From: Priestia megaterium
GTDB lineage: Bacteria; Bacillota; Bacilli; Bacillales; Bacillaceae_H
Direction of reading: 5' to 3'
Assembly: GCF_023824195.1 (NCBI RefSeq)
Contig: NZ_CP085442.1
Location: forward strand, 2,580,001 to 2,644,000
DNA: 64,000 bases
Shown: in pieces, positions 2,811-58,056 of the stretch
How positions within the stretch are numbered: position 1 is the first letter of the stretch
Layout of the letters: each line of letters opens with the position of its first letter
Program-made: the position numbers and the translations under genes
The notes under the pieces: generated by a model
Seen by the model: only the letters and a program-made list of their open reading frames with translations
The model's database searches: none
What the model was told of the DNA's origin: nothing

Positions 2811-2844
2811 AAAACCTTCTCGCTGTGAGGCGAGAAGGTTTTTT
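2811..2844 (-). terminator. terminator of the iclR-hemD-like unit
   Basis: The stem ACCTTCTCGC / GCGAGAAGGT with loop TGTGAG is flanked by A and T tracts. It lies just beyond the stop of the HemD-like gene on the minus strand. Confidence 0.85.
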
Positions 2845-3652
2845 AATCACGCTGCTGATAATAGTGTTCTAAAGCTACAATTGCGCTTCCCATTCTTTCT
2901 TGATCAGGAATAACAATACGACCTACTCCTTCTTCTTTTAAAGCAGCAGCGGTTACTTTCCCAACGGCCACAGCTACTACAGAGCTTTCAAAGAGTTCTC
3001 TAATTCGATCGGCTTGTCCTTGTTCTCTCGCAAACGAAAATAAAAATCGGGCTTGGGGAGCACTTGTGAAATTGACTGCATCGACTTTCCCGCTTATTAA
3101 TTCGTTTATAAGCTGTTCCATGACTTCTGCTTTTGGAGGAATATGCTGATACGGTAAAATCTCTTTAAATTGGGCTTTTTGATTCGAAAGAAAGTCAATC
3201 AACTTTGGTGCAGGATCTCCGTGAAGCTGAAGCGCTACATGCTTTTCTTCAAAAGAAAATGAATGAAGTGCCCTGACTAGTCCCGCTGTACTTCCATCAT
3301 CATCTCGAACGGTTGGAGTAATGCCTAGCTTTTTTAACATATTTACGGTTTTATACCCGCGTGCAGCAATATTGGCTGCTTGTAAAGAAGAAAGAAATTT
3401 GTCAGCCAGCCCTAGCTTATCTGCTGTTTTATACAAAATTTCTGTACCGACCCCTGTCGTAAAAATAAACCAATCATAATTTCCTTTTACCAGTTCTTTA
3501 ATATCTGCTTCTAAATGTGTGTCATCTAAAAAGATGGTTCCTTGTGCAGGTCGTACAAGCGGGGTCCCGCCAAGATTTTCAACAATTTTGCTGATTTCTT
3601 CTACTTTACGCTGACCTACTAATGCGACTGTTTTACCTTCTAATCGTTTCAA
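2843..3652 (-). CDS. uroporphyrinogen-III synthase family protein (HemD-like)
   Basis: A 269-aa protein with the two-lobed HemD pattern: N-terminal GKTVALVGQRK, then DWFIFTTGVGTEIL (usually FTS.NGV), and in the second half DAVNFTSAPQARF, VVAVAVGKVTAAAL and GRIVIPDQ. HemD cyclises hydroxymethylbilane to uroporphyrinogen III. The gene is not beside other hem genes: it follows the IclR regulator by 27 nt and is probably cotranscribed with it. It may therefore be a paralogue with a specialised role rather than the housekeeping enzyme. Start TTG with GGAGG 7 nt upstream. The fold call is good; the physiological role is open. Confidence 0.8.
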   Translation of the reverse strand: MKRLEGKTVALVGQRKVEEISKIVENLGGTPLVRPAQGTIFLDDTHLEADIKELVKGNYDWFIFTTGVGTEILYKTADKLGLADKFLSSLQAANIAARGYKTVNMLKKLGITPTVRDDDGSTAGLVRALHSFSFEEKHVALQLHGDPAPKLIDFLSNQKAQFKEILPYQHIPPKAEVMEQLINELISGKVDAVNFTSAPQARFLFSFAREQGQADRIRELFESSVVAVAVGKVTAAALKEEGVGRIVIPDQERMGSAIVALEHYYQQRD

Positions 3653-3679: not shown

Positions 3680-4444
3680 CTACTTTAATGATCCTTGATA
3701 ACCGAGTTTTTCAGAAATAACTCTCGCCGCTTCCGTTACTTTTTGAATAATGAACGGCAGTCTGTCTCCTTGAAATCTTGCTTCAATTCCCGCTACGCTA
3801 ATGCCTGCAACCACTTCATTTTGATGATTCACAATTGGCGCACTCACGGATGTTGTAAAGTTTTCTAATTCAGAGGTGCTAATGGTATACCCTTTTTCTT
3901 TTGCTTCTTTTAATGCATCTCTTAATTTCTTTTTATCTGTAATAGTTCCAATGCCTATTGGAGCGAGCTCCGTTTGGTTAATATATTTCTCTTGTTCTTT
4001 TTCGGGTAAATGCGCCAAGATAATGCGTGAACAAGCTCCTGCATAAAGAGGTGAACGCCTTCCGATGGATGTATAGAGACGCACTGGATGAAGCGTATCT
4101 ACTTTTTCAATATACATAGCTTCATTCCCGTCTCGTACAATTAAATTAACCGCTTCTTCTACTTCGTCTCGGAGCGTTTCCATTACAGGCTTCGCAACAC
4201 TTCTAATATCTAAACGATTAGCCACTAGCTGGCCAAACTGTAAGAATAAAAGTCCAAGCGAATAGTACCCTTGCGCATCTTTTGTTAAAAAGCCCATCTC
4301 TTCAAGCGAGCCAACCATTCGATGCAAAGAAGTTTTGGGAACGCCCGAATATTCCATCATTTCTGTGAAAGTCAGTTTAGGGTACTTAATAAAAAGCGTG
4401 AGAATCTGCATGGATTTAACGACTGTTTTATTGTTAGCTTGCAT
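3680..4444 (-). CDS. kipR: IclR-family transcriptional regulator, KipR-like
   Basis: 254 aa. An N-terminal winged helix-turn-helix (about 10-75, with KTSLHRMVGSLEEMGFL as the recognition region) precedes an IclR effector domain (about 80-250: LYTSIGRRSPLYAGACSR, VSAPIVN, VAGISVAG). It lies just downstream of the pxp-acc operon in the place that kipR occupies in B. subtilis, so it probably controls that operon. The matching operator candidate is the tandem AGTTCC-type element at 11185-11219. A terminator separates it from accC, so it likely has its own promoter in the 130-nt gap. Start ATG with GGGAG 8 nt upstream. Confidence 0.85.
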   Translation of the reverse strand: MQANNKTVVKSMQILTLFIKYPKLTFTEMMEYSGVPKTSLHRMVGSLEEMGFLTKDAQGYYSLGLLFLQFGQLVANRLDIRSVAKPVMETLRDEVEEAVNLIVRDGNEAMYIEKVDTLHPVRLYTSIGRRSPLYAGACSRIILAHLPEKEQEKYINQTELAPIGIGTITDKKKLRDALKEAKEKGYTISTSELENFTTSVSAPIVNHQNEVVAGISVAGIEARFQGDRLPFIIQKVTEAARVISEKLGYQGSLK

Positions 4445-4533: not shown

Positions 4534-4577
4534 GAAAAAAAGGAAAGCACTCCTTTATAAGAGCACTTTCCTTTTTT
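4534..4577 (-). terminator. terminator of the pxp-acc operon
   Basis: The outer stem AAAAAAGGAAAG / CTTTCCTTTTTT with an inner CTC/GAG helix and a T-tract on the minus strand overlaps the accC stop. It ends the seven-gene operon before the IclR gene. Confidence 0.8.
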
Positions 4578-5940
4578 ACACTATTTCTAGTTCTTTAATG
4601 GAAATAGGATTACTTTCTAGAAATTTGGTTGTAAAATCCCCTTCCTTAAACGAAGGATGATTCAGTAATTCTAAATGAAAAGGAATGGTTGTATGAATAC
4701 CTATAATGATAAATTCCTCGAGCGCACGTTTCATTCGTTGAATCGCTTCATTTCGATCTTTCCCCGTTACAATTAATTTCGCCACCATTGAATCATAAAA
4801 TGGAGAAATTTCATAGCCTGGATAAACCGCGCTGTCTACACGAACGCCGTAGCCGCCAGGAGGTAAATACATCTCGACTTTTCCAGGAGAAGGCATAAAG
4901 TTTTTAGCCGGATTTTCTGCATTGATCCGGCATTCAATTGCCCATCCTTTTAACTGAACATCCCGTTGAGCAAATGATAGCGAGTAACCTGCTGCTACTG
5001 AAATTTGTTCTTTAATTAAGTCAATGTTTGTTACAAGTTCTGTAACAGGGTGTTCAACTTGAATCCGCGTGTTCATTTCCATAAAGTAAAAATGCCCGTG
5101 CTTATCTAACAGAAACTCAACTGTTCCGACACCTGTATAATCGACTGCTTTAGCTGCTGAGACCGCCGCTTTGCCCATTTTAGCACGAAGGTTTTCATCT
5201 ACCGCAGGAGACGGAGCTTCTTCTACCAATTTTTGATGACGGCGTTGAATCGAACAATCTCGTTCACCTAAATGAACCACATTCCCTTCTTCATCAGCAA
5301 TAATTTGAATTTCGATGTGTTTTGGCTCTTCTAAATACTTTTCAAGGTATACGCCGCCGTTTCCAAAGGCTGTTTCTGCTTCATGCTGAGCTTGACGAAT
5401 TGCTTTTTCTAGCTCTTCTTCGCTATGAGCTAGACGCATTCCTTTTCCGCCGCCTCCCGCTGTGGCTTTTACGATGATTGGATAACCTATTTCTCGTGCT
5501 ACTGGAATAGCGGTGCTGCTATCTTCAATCAGCCCTTCTGTTCCAGGTACAATAGGCACGCCGGCTTGTTTCATTGTATCTCGTGCTACAGCTTTTGCTC
5601 CCATTTTACGGATGGCTTCCGCTTTTGGACCAATAAAGGTAATGTCATAGGATTCACACATCTCAGCAAAATCAGCATTTTCAGCTAAAAATCCGTAGCC
5701 GGGATGAACAGCGTCTGCCTTGGTTACTTGCGCTACGGTAAGCAGACTCCGAATGTTTAAGTAGCTTTCTTTAGAAGACGTTTTACCAATACAAAATGAC
5801 TCATCTGCTAGCTTCACATGAAGTGCATCTTTGTCTGCTTCTGAATACACGGCCACGGTTGCAATACTCATCTCTTTACAAGCCCGAATGATACGAACTG
5901 CAATCTCGCCGCGGTTTGCGATTAAGATCTTTTTGAACAT
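4576..5940 (-). CDS. accC: biotin carboxylase subunit (AccC-type), pxp-linked
   Basis: ATP-dependent carboxylation of biotin on the carrier protein. The 454 aa match a full-length biotin carboxylase: [19 protein letters not shown] at the N-terminus, [10 protein letters not shown], the glycine-rich ATP loop [23 protein letters not shown], and [15 protein letters not shown] carrying catalytic Glu, Arg and Lys. It lies 28 nt after the linked accB. Because the gene sits in the pxp operon, it is probably a paralogue of the acetyl-CoA carboxylase subunit that serves a different carboxyl acceptor, perhaps a lactam or urea-like amide. That substrate is inference. Start ATG with AGGAGGAG upstream. Confidence 0.9.
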
Positions 5941-5968
5941 AATGACTCCTCCTGACAGTATGTATACT

Positions 5969-6436
5969 TTAGTGTGATTTTACGGTAAATAAAGGCTGTC
6001 CAAACTCAACAACATCTCCGTCTTTCACAAGGATTTCAAGCACTTCTCCTTCCATTCCCGCATCTACTTCGTTAAACAGCTTCATCGCTTCAATCACACA
6101 CACAACATCTTTACGTTCAATTGTTTGCCCTACTTGAATAAAGGGATCAGCGTCTGCTTCTGGCTTGGCGTAAAACGTTCCGACCATTGGTGATAAAATT
6201 TGCTTTTCATTAATGTCTGCTGAGTTTACAGACAAGGAATCTTGAGGCGCTTGTTCAGTGGCAGCGGCTTTTGCTTGTACTTCTTCAGTTTTCACTTCTG
6301 TAACAGCTGTGTCCTCTAAAGGAATTCCTGCTTTATCAATGACAACTTTTGTTCCTTCATGTTCAATGTGGAGCTTTTGAATACCAGATTCATTCATTAA
6401 CGAAACAACTTCTTGCAATTCACGTACGTTTATCAT
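5969..6436 (-). CDS. accB: biotin carboxyl carrier protein (AccB-type), pxp-linked
   Basis: 155 aa. An N-terminal helical segment (about 1-45, [18 protein letters not shown]) as in AccB, an Ala/Glu/Thr linker at about 45-80, and a C-terminal biotinyl domain (about 80-155) with the biotinylation motif [12 protein letters not shown] (modified Lys in EAMKL) and the opening [11 protein letters not shown]. The carrier moves carboxybiotin from the carboxylase to a carboxyltransferase. It lies 22 nt after pxpC and 28 nt before accC. PxpB and PxpC are related to the carboxyltransferase half of urea carboxylase, which makes this a plausible carrier for that complex. Confidence 0.9.
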
Positions 6437-6458
6437 CTATTGTCACTCCTGTTTTGTG

Positions 6459-7454
6459 TTATTTAGTTGACGCAAGGTTAATAGCAATTTTCAATTCTTG
6501 AAGCAGCTGTTCTTTTTCTAAATAGATTTTTTCTGCTTCATGAAGCGAAATGTGAGAAAAGTAAATGGACTCGCCAGGCTTTATTTGAGCTAAAAGCGGT
6601 AAATCCGCTGTGATGACTTGAGCAATTTTAGGATATCCTCCCGTGGTTTGACGATCTGCTAACAGAATGATAGGATTTCCATCTGGCGGAACTTGAACAG
6701 AACCTTGTGAAACGGCTTCAGACAGTAACTCTTTTTTTTCTTGAAGCTGAAGAGAAGGTCCGGCCATTCGATAGCCCATTCGATCTGATTGATTCGATAC
6801 TTTAAAAGGCTCTTTCATAAAATGACTTTTGCTTTCAGCTGTAAATAAATCAAATTGACTGCCATTCATAACACGGACCGCTGGTTTCTTTGTAAAATGA
6901 ACAAATTCCTTATAATTTACGGACCATGAAGAAGTATATACTCCGTTTATCAGTTCATTTGAAAGAAAAGCAGGCTTTGAAGCAGCAGGAACAGATAGAG
7001 GTAAAACATCGTCTGTTTGTAATGCTCTTCCTTTGTAGCCCCCGATTTCACCTCTTAAATACGTGCTTTTACTATTTAACACTTCATCAATAGCAAATCC
7101 TCCCGCTACAGATAGATAGGAACGACACCCGGTTTTGCAAGGACCAAATGATAAAGTGCTTCCTTTTGGAATAAATAAAGGTTTCCACATCGGGACTGGC
7201 TTTCCGTTGACCGAAGGAGTTAAATCTCCCCCTGTGATCGCTACTAAACAATCACTTTCTATTTCAAGGGTAGGCCCCATTAGCGTAACTTCAAGTCCCG
7301 CTTCTTTTTCATTGTTACCAACTAGTAAATTAGCAATTCGAAGGGAATAAGAATCCATTGCACCGCTTACAATCACACCGTGCTGCTGAAATCCTCTTCT
7401 TCCTAAATCTTGAATGCTCGTTAATAACCCGGCTTTACTGACTCGCATACTCAT
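6459..7454 (-). CDS. pxpC: 5-oxoprolinase subunit C (PxpC/KipA), carboxyltransferase-like
   Basis: 331 aa of the KipA/AHS2 (CT_A_B) family: MRVSKAGLLTSIQDLGRRGFQ, SGAMDSYSLRIAN, LEVTLMGPTLE, and ADRQTTGGYPKIAQV near the C-terminus. With PxpA and PxpB it forms the ATP-dependent prokaryotic 5-oxoprolinase that converts pyroglutamate to glutamate. B. subtilis KipA also counters KipI in kinase A control of sporulation. The family is homologous to the second half of the urea carboxylase carboxyltransferase. The start ATG overlaps the pxpB stop by 4 nt (ATGA), showing tight coupling, with a GGAGGGGGGG ribosome site. Confidence 0.92.
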   Translation of the reverse strand: MSMRVSKAGLLTSIQDLGRRGFQQHGVIVSGAMDSYSLRIANLLVGNNEKEAGLEVTLMGPTLEIESDCLVAITGGDLTPSVNGKPVPMWKPLFIPKGSTLSFGPCKTGCRSYLSVAGGFAIDEVLNSKSTYLRGEIGGYKGRALQTDDVLPLSVPAASKPAFLSNELINGVYTSSWSVNYKEFVHFTKKPAVRVMNGSQFDLFTAESKSHFMKEPFKVSNQSDRMGYRMAGPSLQLQEKKELLSEAVSQGSVQVPPDGNPIILLADRQTTGGYPKIAQVITADLPLLAQIKPGESIYFSHISLHEAEKIYLEKEQLLQELKIAINLASTK

Positions 7455-8206
7455 TTCCCCCCCTCCTTTGCCTGCATTTCTTGATACTCTTCTTTAGAGA
7501 TAGGCTCGAATTTTACAATATCTCCAGCTTGCAGCAAACTTGGGGGATTTTGTTCCGGTAAAAACAGCTTAATAGGCGTTTGACCAATTAACTGCCATCC
7601 TCCGGGAGTGGAAATAGGATACACTCCTGTTTGCATTCCTGCAATACCAACCGAACCCGCAGGAATAGAGGTGCGAGGAGACGGCCGGCGAGGCGTAGCA
7701 ATTCTTTCAGATAATCCTCCTAGAAATGGAAATCCAGGAGCAAACCCAATCATGTACGCTAAGTATTCGCCTTCAGAATGAATACTAATTACCTCTTCAG
7801 TTGTTAAGTTATGGTGACGAGCGACATATTCAAGGTCAGGTCCATACTCTCCCCCGTAGCAAACTGGAATGGAAACCGTACGATGGTCTAACTCTTTTTC
7901 TGTCTGTTCGTTTTCTAGTTTACTTTGAACGATGGAACATACTACTTCAAAAGGAGAAACAAATTCCTTCTTCTGCTTTTTTCTCCCGGCTGCTACAACT
8001 TCAAGAGGGTTATAGAAAATTGTAAGATTTGTAAATGCCGGCACGCATTCAACAAACCCTGGGAAAGGATTTAATTCTATCGAATCTTTACACGTTTTGA
8101 TTTGTTTATGAGTGTCGTACTGAATGCTATCTCCAAACGTTATAACAAGCGCTGAGTCGCCAAGCGGAGAAATAACAGCCGACGCTTTTGTTACGGTTTG
8201 ATTCAT
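7451..8206 (-). CDS. pxpB: 5-oxoprolinase subunit B (PxpB/KipI)
   Basis: 251 aa of the KipI/AHS1 (CT_C_D) family: DSALVITFGDSI near the start, then the signature MIGFAPGFPFLGGLSE and TPGGWQLIGQTP in the cyclophilin-like C-terminal domain. It partners PxpC in 5-oxoproline cleavage. In B. subtilis the same protein inhibits autophosphorylation of the sporulation kinase KinA. It carries an insert of about 20 residues (AAGRKKQKKEFVSP) near position 75 that I cannot place in the family. It lies 17 nt after ycsI; start ATG with AGAGGTG upstream. Confidence 0.92.
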   Translation of the reverse strand: MNQTVTKASAVISPLGDSALVITFGDSIQYDTHKQIKTCKDSIELNPFPGFVECVPAFTNLTIFYNPLEVVAAGRKKQKKEFVSPFEVVCSIVQSKLENEQTEKELDHRTVSIPVCYGGEYGPDLEYVARHHNLTTEEVISIHSEGEYLAYMIGFAPGFPFLGGLSERIATPRRPSPRTSIPAGSVGIAGMQTGVYPISTPGGWQLIGQTPIKLFLPEQNPPSLLQAGDIVKFEPISKEEYQEMQAKEGGK

Positions 8207-8223
8207 ATCTACACCTCTTTCTT

Positions 8224-9015
8224 TTATAAAACACCTAGTTTTTCATCTCGAATATCTGTGATAAACATATGCCCCGGAGCATGTGTAATCATAATAGAAG
8301 GTTTTGTTTCCATTGCTACCGCTTGAGGGGTTACACCACAAGCCCAAAATACGGGAACTTCCCCTTCCTTAATCGAAACAGCATCGCCAAAATCTGGAGA
8401 ATGGAGGTCTTCAATACCTATCGCAGCGGGATCTCCGATGTGAACAGGCCCCCCGTGCACAGCTGGAAAACGCGAAGTTACTTGGGCTGCCCGCACTACG
8501 TCTTGCTGAGGAATTGGACGCATACTAACCACCGTCGAGCCACGAAATATTCCTGCTTCAGTGCACGAAATATTTGTTTTATACATAGGAACATTACAAT
8601 TTTCTTCAATGTGACGAACAGATATGTCATTGTTTAAAAGTGCGTGTTCAAATGTAAAGCTGCAACCGATAAGGAAAGCTACCATATCTTCTGTCCAATA
8701 GTCTGTGATATCGGTTACTTCTTTTACTAGTTCCCCATTTTCATAGATTCGATACTTTGGAATGTCTGTTCGAATATCTCCGGACGGAGCTGCAAATTTT
8801 GGTACCGGGGATCCAACGTCTGTTACATCTAAAAGAGGACAAGATTTAGGGTTACGCTGACAGAACAATAGAAAGTCAAAAGCTTGTTTCTTTGGTAAAA
8901 TAGCTAAATTAGCTTGAGCATAGCCGTTTGCCATGCCTGCTGTTGGTTGAATAAGCTGATTGTTACGGATTTGCTGACGAAGTTCAGCTGGAGTTAGTTG
9001 TGAAAGGTTTGTCAT
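8224..9015 (-). CDS. ycsI: putative hydro-lyase, DUF1445 / YcsI family
   Basis: About 263 aa, matching the normal DUF1445 length: LTPAELRQQIRNNQL, GYAQANLAILPK, FLLFCQRNPKSCPLLDVTDVG, FLIGCSFTFEHAL, VVSMRPIP, HGGPVHIGDP, VFWACGVTPQ and ITHAPGHMFITD. DUF1445 is also one domain of mammalian D-glutamate cyclase, which makes 5-oxo-D-proline from D-glutamate. Position in an oxoprolinase operon fits a role in supplying or handling 5-oxoproline; this is inference. The ATG at 9015 has GGGAG 8 nt upstream and is preferred to the longer frame beginning at 9042, which would begin inside a strong hairpin. Confidence 0.85.
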   Translation of the reverse strand: MTNLSQLTPAELRQQIRNNQLIQPTAGMANGYAQANLAILPKKQAFDFLLFCQRNPKSCPLLDVTDVGSPVPKFAAPSGDIRTDIPKYRIYENGELVKEVTDITDYWTEDMVAFLIGCSFTFEHALLNNDISVRHIEENCNVPMYKTNISCTEAGIFRGSTVVSMRPIPQQDVVRAAQVTSRFPAVHGGPVHIGDPAAIGIEDLHSPDFGDAVSIKEGEVPVFWACGVTPQAVAMETKPSIMITHAPGHMFITDIRDEKLGVL

Positions 9016-9033
9016 ATTTCTATCTCCCATCAT

Positions 9034-9060
9034 TGCCCGCACGCAACTTACGTGCGGGCA
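9034..9060 (-). other. GC-rich intercistronic hairpin between ycsG and ycsI
   Basis: A perfect 10-bp stem TGCCCGCACG / CGTGCGGGCA with a 7-nt loop lies between the ycsG stop and the ycsI ribosome site. No U-tract follows on the minus strand, so it is not a classical terminator. A role as mRNA-stabilising or processing element that lets ycsG and downstream genes differ in level is possible. Confidence 0.6.
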
Positions 9061-9067
9061 CCTTGTT

Positions 9068-10306
9068 TTATTTAAATAATTGAGGAAGTTGATCCATTAA
9101 CGTATAGCCGCCCATTAAAGCCATTACAATAACGACAAGTACACCAGAAATAGTGAGCCATAAAGGGTGTTTATACTCGCCAACGATGCTTTTTTTGTAA
9201 GCCGCAATCAGTAATGTTCCAAGAGCAACGGGCAAAATTAATCCATTGAGTGCTCCAACTAAAAGCAGAACTTTTACAGGTTTTCCAATTAAGACAAACG
9301 ACAGAGTTGAAATAATAATAAACCCAATAATAATCCAGTTTGAGTTTTTATTAAGTTTTTCACTAAAGGTTTGAATAAATGAAACGGATGTATAAGCAGC
9401 TCCTACCACAGACGTAATAGCGGCAGACCACATGACAATACCAAAGATTTTATAGCCGACGTTTCCTGCTGCAAGCTGAAACACGGATGCTGGAGGGTTG
9501 GCCGGGTCAATTTGCAAACCTTTAGACACAACGCCAAGTACAGCTAAAAACAAAGCAATTCGCATAACGGAAGTGATGAGAATTCCCGTTACAGAACTTT
9601 TTGTTACTTGAGGTAAAGAATCGATACCTTTTACGCCAGCATCTAAAAGACGATGTCCACCAGCAAAGGTAATGTAACCACCGACTGTTCCTCCAACAAG
9701 CGTAACGATCGCAATAATGTCAATTTTGTCAGGAGCAAAAGTTTTCACTACAGCTTCTCCAACGGGAGGTGAAGTGGTAGCCGCTACATATAGCATCAGC
9801 CCAATCATGACAAAACCTGCAATTTGCGTGAAGCGATCCATTGCTTTTCCAGCTTCTTTTACAACGAAGATTAGCACGGCAATAACTGCACTAATTGCAG
9901 CTCCGGCGGTTGGAGAAATACCCGTAATAGCATTTAATCCAAGCCCGGCACCGGCAATATTTCCAATATTGAAAGCAAGTCCTCCAATAACAATTAAAAT
10001 AGCGAGCACGTACCCTAATCCGGGAAATACCATGTTGGCGATTTCTTGTCCGCGTTTTTCAGAAACCGCAATAATTCTCCATACGTTGGTTTGAGCAAAG
10101 ATATCAAGAATAATTGAAATTAAAATAACGAATCCGAAGCTTGCGGCTAAATTTTGTGTAAATACGGTAGTTTGAGTTAAAAAGCCTGGTCCAATAGCCG
10201 ATGTGGCCATTAAAAAAGCGGCTCCAAGCATTAACGTCCAGTTTACTTTAGGCGCAGCCGAAAGCTTTTGCTGAGGTGTTGATTTTTTAATTGGCTCCAA
10301 TATCAT
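9068..10306 (-). CDS. ycsG: NRAMP-related transporter, YcsG family
   Basis: About 412 aa with some 11 hydrophobic segments. The N-terminal helix reads AFLMATSAIGPGFLTQTT, where true NRAMP metal transporters have the DPGN metal-binding motif; here the Asp and Asn are absent, so manganese or iron transport is unlikely. Location between pxpA and ycsI, conserved in B. subtilis, suggests uptake of the operon's substrate (5-oxoproline or a related amide); that is inference. SD AGGAGG lies only 3 nt before the ATG at 10306, and a TTG two codons later (10300) has better 9-nt spacing. It follows pxpA by 24 nt. Confidence 0.82.
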   Translation of the reverse strand: MILEPIKKSTPQQKLSAAPKVNWTLMLGAAFLMATSAIGPGFLTQTTVFTQNLAASFGFVILISIILDIFAQTNVWRIIAVSEKRGQEIANMVFPGLGYVLAILIVIGGLAFNIGNIAGAGLGLNAITGISPTAGAAISAVIAVLIFVVKEAGKAMDRFTQIAGFVMIGLMLYVAATTSPPVGEAVVKTFAPDKIDIIAIVTLVGGTVGGYITFAGGHRLLDAGVKGIDSLPQVTKSSVTGILITSVMRIALFLAVLGVVSKGLQIDPANPPASVFQLAAGNVGYKIFGIVMWSAAITSVVGAAYTSVSFIQTFSEKLNKNSNWIIIGFIIISTLSFVLIGKPVKVLLLVGALNGLILPVALGTLLIAAYKKSIVGEYKHPLWLTISGVLVVIVMALMGGYTLMDQLPQLFK

Positions 10307-10330
10307 CTTCCTCCTGATTGTATGTAGTTT

Positions 10331-11092
10331 TTATTTTGAAATAGCTTTAACTACTACTTCTGATGCTTGTAAAGAACGGTTCACATGACGAGCAAATTCA
10401 AGTGCGTGAGCCCCGTCTCCATGGATGCAAATCGTGTCTGCCTGCAATTCTACATCCTTACCTTGCTGAGATTTCACCTTCCCTTCTTTCACCATTGTAA
10501 TAACTTGGGATACAGCTTCGTCATCATTTTCAATTAAAGCATTTGGTTCTGTGCGAGCAGTGAGAGAACCGTCTAATTGATAAGTACGGTCTGCAAATAC
10601 TTCGTTAGCTGTTTTTAAACCAATTCTGTTACCTGCTTGAATCAGCTCACTTCCAGATAACCCAAACAAAATCAGCTCAGGATTTACGTTGTAAACAGCT
10701 TTTGCTATTGCTTCAGACAATGCTTTGTTTTTGGCCGCCATGTTATATAGTGCACCGTGAGGTTTTACATGCTGCATCGATAACCCTTCCGCTTGCAAAA
10801 AACCGTTTAATGCCCCAATTTGATAGACCACGATATCATAGGCTTCCTGAGGTGAAATATTCATGTTTCTGCGTCCAAAACCGATAAGGTCCTGCAAACC
10901 AGGATGAGCCCCAATTTGCACCTTTTTTTCAGCAGCCAATTTCACCGTTTTTCTCATGACGCTCGGATCCCCTGCATGAAATCCACAGGCTACGTTCACA
11001 GACGTCACATGCTCTAAAATTGCTTCATCATTGCCAATACGATAAGCACCAAAGCTTTCCCCTAAATCACAGTTTAAATCTACTTTACTCAA
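10331..11092 (-). CDS. pxpA: 5-oxoprolinase subunit A (PxpA, LamB/YcsF family)
   Basis: About 253 aa with the LamB/YcsF signature [13 protein letters not shown] at the N-terminus, [39 protein letters not shown] and [10 protein letters not shown]. First gene of the operon and the conserved partner of PxpBC. The frame extends to 11158, but the conserved domain begins at the TTG at 11092, preceded by AAGGGGGAAG, so that start is chosen. An extended -10 promoter and a tandem IclR-like operator lie just upstream. Confidence 0.92.
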
Positions 11093-11259: not shown

Positions 11260-11438
11260 CAACATTGTCAGAATATTTGACATAGTCATTATTTTCACTT
11301 GGATAATACTCCCTTATTTTATTGCTATCTTCTATCTATAGCCTTAATATAACGCAACCGCTTAATGTCATTAGACGCAGTAAACAAATAGGTTGTCAGA
11401 ATAATTACTAGTTCAAAATAATCAAAATGAAATTTTCG

Positions 11439-40551: not shown

Positions 40552-40670
40552 ATGAAAAAGACGTCCACGCAGGACGTCTTTGATGCGTTTGTGGCGGGGA
40601 CCGTGTGACCACATTCACACGTTTAGCTCGAAAGCATGTCCTTCGACTTACACAAATTAGCTCATCGCTT
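40552..40670 (-). ncRNA. candidate small structured RNA
   Basis: On the minus strand a promoter (40703-40675) is followed by about 118 nt ending in a rho-independent terminator (AAAGACGTCC / GGACGTCTTT then T-rich, 40581-40552). In between, helices can form: GAUG/CAUC, UUUGUG/CACAAA (40656-40651 with 40593-40588), a UCGAAG/CUUUCGA hairpin, and a perfect 7-bp CGUGUGA/UCACACG hairpin (40621-40602). No open frame fits on the minus strand, and no minus-strand gene follows. I do not recognise the class; it could be a new sRNA or an orphan aptamer. Confidence 0.55.
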
Positions 40671-57531: not shown

Positions 57532-57548
57532 CAAATATATGCTACTAT

Positions 57549-57640
57549 TCCCACATTCCTACGCTAGCGTTAACTAACAGGTTCGAAGGGTCTGAACAAT
57601 TTGTTCACTCTCAGCACGGCGGCTCCCCCTGTGGTACGTT
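57549..57640 (-). promoter_or_regulatory. TPP riboswitch (thi box)
   Basis: The minus strand holds the thi-box order: CCACAGGGGGAGCC, GCTGAGAGTG, GACCCTTCGAACCTG, GTTAACGCTAGCGTAGGAA, closed by CCACA/TGTGG as P1. The conserved CUGAGA and ACCUG/GCGUAGG-type segments that contact thiamine pyrophosphate are present. It precedes thiT, a standard target. Confidence 0.95.
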
Positions 57641-57794: not shown

Positions 57795-57821
57795 AAAAAA
57801 CCCTCATCCTAATCGATGAGG
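57795..57821 (-). terminator. minus-strand terminator within lysine P1 region
   Basis: Minus strand CCTCATC-GATTAG-GATGAGG followed by GTTTTTT is a compact terminator. Its first arm is the complement of the 5' P1 strand of the lysine aptamer. It would stop antisense transcription of the lysP leader before thiT. Confidence 0.55.
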
Positions 57822-58056
57822 TAGAGGTCGCAGTTTTTAATAGTAAAGTAACGGAAATGCAGAGAACATTGAGGATGTTGCTTGAAAGGAAAAATTGCCG
57901 AAGTTTAGATCACTTCTCGGTTGATTTAAGCTGGGGCTGTCTCCGAACAGGAACAGAACTGTCACATCATGCAAGTGATGTGAAGAGCTATCTTCACGGA
58001 AGGTTGACGCGGTTTTCAGATTTAAAAGCGCGCACATATACTGCGGGCTTTTTTTA
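57811..58056 (+). promoter_or_regulatory. lysine riboswitch (L box) with terminator
   Basis: Lysine aptamer elements appear in order: GATGAGGTAGAGG, TTTTTAATAGTA, TGCTTGAAAGG, TTGCCGAAG, CTGGGGCTGTC, ACAGAACTGTCACAT, GAAGAGCTATC. A terminator AAAAGCGCGCA / TGCGGGCTTTT with T7 (58024-58055) follows before the ribosome site of lysP. High lysine should end transcription there. Confidence 0.95.

Follow-up and report, generated by a model that had tools for sequence, protein, structure and literature searches.

Layout of the operon

The window analysed here is a 64,000-nucleotide (nt) stretch of the Priestia megaterium genome (contig NZ_CP085442.1, positions 2,580,001 to 2,644,000), and we describe an operon within it that encodes proteins of the PxpA, PxpB and PxpC (5-oxoprolinase) families together with a biotin carboxyl carrier protein (AccB) and a biotin carboxylase (AccC). 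Seven genes, pxpA-mntG(ycsG)-ycsI-pxpB-pxpC-accB-accC, made up one compact minus-strand unit (4576-11092). The operon and its associated elements were as follows (loci in other genomes are given below as L numbers).

11266..11282, no strand assigned: putative palindromic TGTNAN7TNACA box (TnrA/GlnR type), perfect match, about 170 nt upstream of the pxpA start
10331..11092, minus strand: pxpA (LamB/YcsF family), TTG start at 11092
9068..10306, minus strand: mntG/ycsG/pxpT, Nramp-family transporter (domain models; names from the accessible text of PMC10448178 and PMC13274462)
9034..9060, minus strand: GC-rich hairpin between mntG and ycsI (z -3.9; listed on the plus strand by the terminator scan)
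8224..9015, minus strand: ycsI, D-glutamate cyclase (DUF1445) family (domain models; ATG start at 9015 read from the sequence)
7451..8206, minus strand: pxpB (kipI), CT_C_D, C-terminal half of a urea carboxylase-type carboxyltransferase
6459..7454, minus strand: pxpC (kipA), CT_A_B, N-terminal half of a urea carboxylase-type carboxyltransferase
5969..6436, minus strand: accB, biotin carboxyl carrier protein with an EAMKL biotinylation site (TIGR00531 and motif)
4576..5940, minus strand: accC, biotin carboxylase, an additional genomic copy (TIGR00514, paralogues and sequence patterns)
4536..4577, minus strand: terminator-like hairpin 3' of accC (-23 kcal/mol, z -6.7)
3680..4444, minus strand: kipR, IclR-family regulator, past the post-accC hairpin (domain models)

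Intergenic distances read from the sequence were 24 nt for pxpA-mntG, 17 nt for ycsI-pxpB, 22 nt for pxpC-accB and 28 nt for accB-accC, with a 4-nt overlap of pxpB and pxpC. The initial annotation had described seven tightly spaced genes in one direction with a hairpin in a gap of about 50 nt between ycsG and ycsI, and this layout was recovered in full on the minus strand, with gaps of 17-28 nt, the overlap, and a hairpin-bearing gap of 52 nt if ycsI starts at the ATG at 9015. An earlier GTG at 9042, which overlaps that hairpin, is also given as a ycsI start in the list of open reading frames (ORFs). The box upstream of pxpA follows the TnrA/GlnR-type consensus TGTNAN7TNACA. The hairpin after accC consisted of 19 pairs with a T-rich 3' arm and began inside the accC stop codon; it was absent from the list returned by a consensus terminator scan of the window. 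A GlnR site ahead of the ycsFGI-kipIAR operon is listed for B. megaterium in PMC3412718, in the main text of which neither "biotin" nor "accB" occurs by term counts.

The operon shares pxpA, the transporter, ycsI, pxpB, pxpC and kipR with the PxpABC 5-oxoprolinase systems (ycsFGI-kipIAR of B. subtilis; pxpTABC of C. glutamicum), as well as the TnrA/GlnR-type box, and its gene order matches the B. subtilis-type operon of B. tequilensis (L107). It differs from an ordinary PxpABC operon in having accB-accC inserted between pxpC and kipR and a terminator-like hairpin after accC. The absence of accBC from the B. subtilis-type operon, stated in the initial annotation, was seen in B. tequilensis.

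Protein families and relation to known enzymes

Pfam and NCBIfam models assigned the seven products to LamB_YcsF/PxpA, Nramp, D-Glu_cyclase (YcsI), CT_C_D/PxpB, the CT_A_B/PxpC family, BCCP and AccC. The PxpA, PxpB and PxpC families were found in one cluster with NF003813, TIGR00370 (PxpB) and TIGR00724 (PxpC) above their cut-offs. AccB (TIGR00531; 150 bits against an equivalog cut-off of 115) and AccC (TIGR00514; 770 bits against 626) both lay above the acetyl-CoA carboxylase equivalog cut-offs. PxpC scored below the NCBIfam equivalog NF045499 (282 bits against 500), a model that may be narrow, because a second, accBC-free PxpC of the same genome also fell short of it (298 bits). The nearest public PxpC and PxpB proteins were from Priestia, and relatives of PxpC are named "biotin-dependent carboxyltransferase family protein" by NCBI. 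The function of YcsG (9068-10306) is described differently in print, as a manganese importer in the accessible text of PMC10448178 and as a 5-oxoproline transporter, via the homologue PxpT, in that of PMC13274462.

The operon encodes a biotin carboxylase, a biotin carrier and carboxyltransferase-type components together, the parts list of a biotin-dependent carboxylase, and the domain models bear out the earlier claim that the four urea carboxylase domain types occur here as separate subunits in one unit with PxpA. The single-chain urea carboxylase model TIGR02712 reached at best 557 bits, with AccC alone, against a cut-off of 1304. Compared with urea carboxylase/urea amidolyase (PDB 3VA7, 5I8I), the system has four separate subunits instead of one chain, includes PxpA, has an arginine in place of the general-base lysine in PxpB, and a domain scan found no allophanate hydrolase among the seven operon genes. 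With acetyl-CoA carboxylase (AccABCD) it shares the same equivalog AccB and AccC, whereas AccA and AccD were absent among the nine window proteins scanned; the carboxyltransferase partner would be PxpBC. Neither PxpB nor PxpC had an ATP-binding domain recognised by Pfam, AccC being the sole ATP-grasp protein of the operon. AccB retained the EAMKL motif, and AccC fitted all three of the sequence patterns tested, which we take to be characteristic of the family; because another AccC of the same genome fitted only one of the three, these patterns are read as family marks and no proof of catalysis.

The 5.98 Mb genome contains another accB-accC pair at 4.36 Mb (39% identity to the operon pair for AccB, 67% for AccC), and the operon accBC is an extra pair, not the genome's sole one. 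A long protein with a biotin carboxylase domain at 1.35 Mb, pyruvate carboxylase-like in appearance, and one further AccC-like gene were also found. The only accA above cut-off was at 4.66 Mb (C1:4660652), in a genome search that covered accA and not accD. A second pxp operon, pxpB-pxpC-pxpA-mntG, lies at 0.956 Mb (L040, C1:948000-965000), with a PxpC 50% identical to that of the window and with neither accBC nor a TnrA-type box within the 17 kb opened.

A homologous contact is recorded in PDB entry 9YX5 (released 2025-11-26), in which, as judged from its title, chain names and alignments, the PxpBC homologue MSMEG_0435-0436 is bound to the long chain acyl-CoA carboxylase complex of M. smegmatis, which includes the biotin subunit AccA3; the title documents binding, not activity. 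The M. smegmatis complex uses the shared subunit AccA3, whereas the P. megaterium operon has a dedicated AccBC. The accessible text of PMC11001197 and PMC4617892 gives expression data only for MSMEG_0435-0436.

Recurrence of the pxp-accBC linkage

The linkage of pxp genes with accBC is a minority yet recurrent architecture, found in at least two phyla. The genome survey for accBC with pxpBC that the initial annotation called for returned it in three sets of sequences. Among the best 80 of 566 related loci, a choice that is biased toward window-like PxpC, 16 had accB, alone or with accC, no farther than about 3.3 kb from pxpC (Bacilli, Clostridia, Negativicutes). One of these, in Bacillus sp. 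03113, had exactly the gene order of the window; the others were in Domibacillus (4), Paenibacillus (4), Bacillus chungangensis, Bacillus sp. FJAT-44742, Clostridium guangxiense, Sporomusa (2), Propionispira and Pelosinus. The accBC genes stood downstream of pxpBC in most lineages and upstream in Paenibacillus. pxpA was inside the fetched stretch of 14 of the 16 linked loci; one of the remainder (L118) is a contig of 4 kb, cut off inside accB. In the taxonomic order of the window, 112 of 120 genomes carried PxpC and 6 of these had AccB no more than 100 bases from it, with AccB taken at E <= 1e-15, which may miss diverged carriers, and coordinates compared by eye. One additional genome of this survey (L163) had AccC beside a diverged PxpC. 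Behind the diverged PxpC at this locus (G157:C1 near 3870674) come a small ORF resembling a carrier (42 bits to AccB) and a gene for an AccC-like protein with a score of 595 bits against the urea carboxylase model, an arrangement that is perhaps another split carboxylase.

The third set consisted of 13 plasmid regions, hand-picked from two ranked lists out of 743 records with a match. Seven, all from Pseudomonadota, carried pxpA and pxpBC with a carrier and accC (P. aeruginosa pCF39S, Terrarubrum, Sinorhizobium, Bradyrhizobium, Mesorhizobium and two Rhizobium), with pxpA, carrier and accC of the Mesorhizobium plasmid on the opposite strand about 4 kb off. Agrobacterium vitis pAvCG78a (L208) had two biotin/lipoyl carriers beside pxpBC and no accC within 6 kb, and five regions had neither carrier nor accC. 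No relatives were found on viral contigs. Because the linkage recurs in several gene orders and two phyla, it is more than chance.

Several of these loci had further features. The Pseudomonadota pxp loci L198, L199, L200, L201, L204, L205 and L208, all with accBC except L208, stood alongside mixes of aminotransferase, RraA/4-carboxy-4-hydroxy-2-oxoadipate aldolase, short-chain dehydrogenase/reductase (SDR) and (ABC) transporter genes, neighbourhoods that would suit a 4-substituted 5-oxoproline. Four Negativicutes loci (L086, L088, L119, L122) had two PxpBC pairs, one diverged and one adjoining accBC, but just one pxpA inside the stretch fetched. At L084 (14498-16400) an accBC whose AccC is close to the other AccC of that genome lay 6.5-7 kb from pxpC and was apparently a recent, independent arrival.

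Co-inheritance of PxpBC with the linked AccC

Across 11 genomes, PxpBC distances correlated with those of the linked AccC at r 0.83 and with those of the genome's next AccC at r 0.36, with partial correlations of 0.81 and -0.16, respectively (Mantel 0/5000). The "housekeeping" AccC of this test was each genome's next AccC, taken without regard to neighbouring genes; it was distant in Sporomusa, Propionispira and C. guangxiense, and Pelosinus was left out. In all 11 genomes, a smaller distance separated the linked AccC from a linked AccC of some other genome than from the next AccC within the same genome, and PxpBC fitted AccC (0.79) more closely than PxpA (0.48; 10 genomes). A quick concatenated PxpBC tree, in which near copies cluster by themselves, required 8 changes of the accBC label compared to 16.2 when labels were shuffled (0/500 as low). 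Thirteen of 17 linked rows fell in one 27-row PxpBC clade, which also includes unlinked enzymes such as that of B. tequilensis.

In the AccC tree (also quick), the linked AccCs lay outside the clade of other Bacilli AccC (support 90), with the exception of L084. A single origin of the linked Bacillota AccC was neither rejected nor demonstrated (approximately unbiased (AU) test, p 0.104), with a linked group of 16 rows and 32 other rows. The urea carboxylase locus L160, L163 and L084, which are labelled linked in the AccC tree and stand outside the co-inheritance test, were among the 32.

Interpretation and alternatives

Our leading interpretation, which we advance with some reserve, is that the product of the operon is a derived 5-oxoprolinase variant coupled to AccBC, with PxpBC acting as a carboxyltransferase on 5-oxoproline or a near lactam. 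This variant carries most weight because the AccBC pair is dedicated, keeps its family marks, is co-inherited with PxpBC and recurrent, and because a homologous contact has been solved. From the observed gene content and order, carrier and biotin carboxylase signatures, recurrence, co-inheritance and fold we infer that the subunits may assemble in P. megaterium and transfer a carboxyl group to such a substrate. The more specific proposal of a carboxylating 5-oxoprolinase (lactam carboxylase), in which ATP is spent by AccC instead of PxpBC, the lactam is N-carboxylated by PxpBC and opened by PxpA, and the CO2 is recovered for reuse, is possible and is put forward tentatively. In the cycle proposed for the AccBC-coupled variant, AccC would use ATP and bicarbonate to load a carboxyl group onto the biotin of AccB, and the two carboxyltransferase halves of PxpBC would hand this group on to the nitrogen in the ring of 5-oxoproline or of a close pyrrolidone. 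PxpA would then open the activated ring, and the resulting N-carboxyglutamate would release CO2 to give glutamate, at a net cost of one ATP, equal to that of the ordinary enzyme.

Several observations weigh against this interpretation. Niehaus (2017) reportedly reconstituted activity with the recombinant PxpA, PxpB and PxpC proteins of B. subtilis. In a phylum sample of 149 evenly drawn Bacillota genomes, 49 of them with PxpC, 37 loci were opened from 35 of the 48 other PxpC genomes (13 unopened), some on short contigs, and none had AccB or AccC, so accBC linkage is a minority architecture; two weak AccC matches (81 bits) in these loci fell in ORFs of more than 1000 codons. An AccC search of the 149 genomes at E <= 1e-60, a threshold that also catches pyruvate carboxylase-like proteins, left 34 without a match. 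Among the PxpC-bearing genomes, 21 of 49 had no detectable biotin carboxylase, 15 of these being at least 95% complete, and PxpC was commoner where biotin carboxylase was missing (21/34 compared to 28/115 genomes; Fisher p 1.2e-4). Carboxybiotin is therefore not a requirement of PxpABC as a class, and PxpBC does something without biotin carboxylase, so a biotin-dependent enzyme can exist only in a derived subset. One linked locus (L115) had no pxpA in 17 kb. PxpBC and AccC could also travel together from physical linkage alone; joint transfer of neighbours accounts for part of their co-inheritance, although the variety of gene orders points to something further.

Residue comparisons pointed in the same direction. 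A residue signature specific to linked PxpBC was sought and rejected, as no column separated 17 linked from 104 unlinked PxpBC at 85%/25% thresholds. Columns that split linked PxpBC from those of genomes without biotin carboxylase look like descent, because many unlinked relatives share most of them. Closeness to urea carboxylase was alike in linked PxpBC and in 18 from genomes without biotin carboxylase (0.293 and 0.297; 0.382 and 0.381). The general-base lysine of the urea carboxylase carboxyltransferase domain (K1605 of K. lactis urea amidolyase, PMC5770610) was replaced by arginine in all 17 linked and all 104 unlinked PxpB; it is Arg173 in the window PxpB and lysine in L160, L161 and K. 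lactis, and the PxpB-family chain of 9YX5 also keeps arginine. The initial annotation had proposed a multi-subunit biotin-dependent carboxylase instead of a simple ATP-dependent oxoprolinase. The separate domain types, the extra accBC, the co-inheritance and the 9YX5 contact speak for it, but the PxpC genomes without biotin carboxylase, the arginine in 121 of 121 PxpB and the lack of a linked-specific residue do not, and the proposal could hold for a derived subset only.

A neofunctionalised lactam or amide carboxylase, in which the linked PxpBC acts on another substrate and the second, accBC-free pxpBCA operon is the ordinary 5-oxoprolinase, is unlikely. It would account for the enrichment of a second PxpC (at least 150 bits) in genomes with linked accB or accC (5/7 compared to 4/105 unlinked; Fisher p 1.9e-5) or with linked accB only (4/6 compared to 5/106; p 2.8e-4), tallies counted by eye from the order survey that fit a division of labour and leave a different substrate open. 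The aminotransferases, RraA-type aldolases, SDRs and ABC transporters beside the Pseudomonadota versions, several of which have an altered PxpB motif, also favour it. However, mntG, ycsI and kipR, the neighbours in the window, also belong to the 5-oxoproline operon of the B. subtilis type, the B. tequilensis PxpBC falls inside the same 27-row clade, and only 6 or 7 linked genomes were counted.

We also consider it improbable that the operon encodes an ordinary ATP-dependent 5-oxoprolinase and that the extra AccBC serves acetyl-CoA carboxylase, with linkage as an expression convenience. AccB and AccC above the acetyl-CoA carboxylase cut-offs, PxpC retained in genomes without biotin carboxylase and PxpBC without linked-specific residues are as this explanation would have it. 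Against it, accA is not in the operon and the genome has one accA above cut-off, linked AccC lineages are mostly apart from other Bacilli AccC (L084 excepted) and track PxpBC, and the pairing is seen again in further phyla and with other gene orders.

Binding of AccBC to PxpBC for regulation or sequestration, coupling biotin or bicarbonate state to nitrogen recovery with no carboxyl transfer, appears very unlikely. It agrees with the 9YX5 title, which gives binding and not activity, and with the unchanged PxpBC residues, whereas the AccB EAMKL motif and the three AccC patterns (family marks only) would be needless for a scaffold. The model that all PxpABC use carboxybiotin, mostly from housekeeping AccBC with linked accBC as a private supply, was first favoured from 9YX5, in which AccA3 is a shared subunit, and from the lack of a Pfam-recognised ATP site in PxpBC, and it is highly implausible, being contradicted by the 21 of 49 PxpC genomes with no biotin carboxylase match, pyruvate carboxylase included, unless their biotin carboxylase is too distant for the search.

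Each component of the AccBC-coupled variant is already known; what has been little noticed is the combination of pxp with accBC, which suggests that some of these enzymes are biotin-dependent carboxylases. No description of the linkage was found in the open-access papers searched, most subscription papers, including any on 9YX5, being outside the search. PMC13274462 still treats the division of labour in PxpABC as an assumption, and Lombard and Moreira (PMC3199775) raised the question of whether carboxyltransferase halves of this kind cooperate with other biotin carboxylases or stem from another reaction. A carboxylating 5-oxoprolinase, if true, would answer that question with yes for the subset with an AccBC of its own or a borrowed one. 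Homologues of PxpBC are widespread, and the AccBC-bearing operons together with 9YX5 make the question of a partner biotin carboxylase directly testable, with genomes that have PxpC and no detectable biotin carboxylase as the matching negative set.

Other features of the window

A uroporphyrinogen-III synthase-like gene was located at 2843-3652, 27 nt downstream of kipR. Exact TGTNAN7TNACA boxes numbered 9 in the whole window compared to 1.42 expected, and nitrogen-regulated genes may be plentiful in this stretch. Rfam matches in the window were a lysine riboswitch (57814-57998), a TPP (thiamine pyrophosphate) riboswitch (57539-57639) and the small RNA BsrF (40558-40668).

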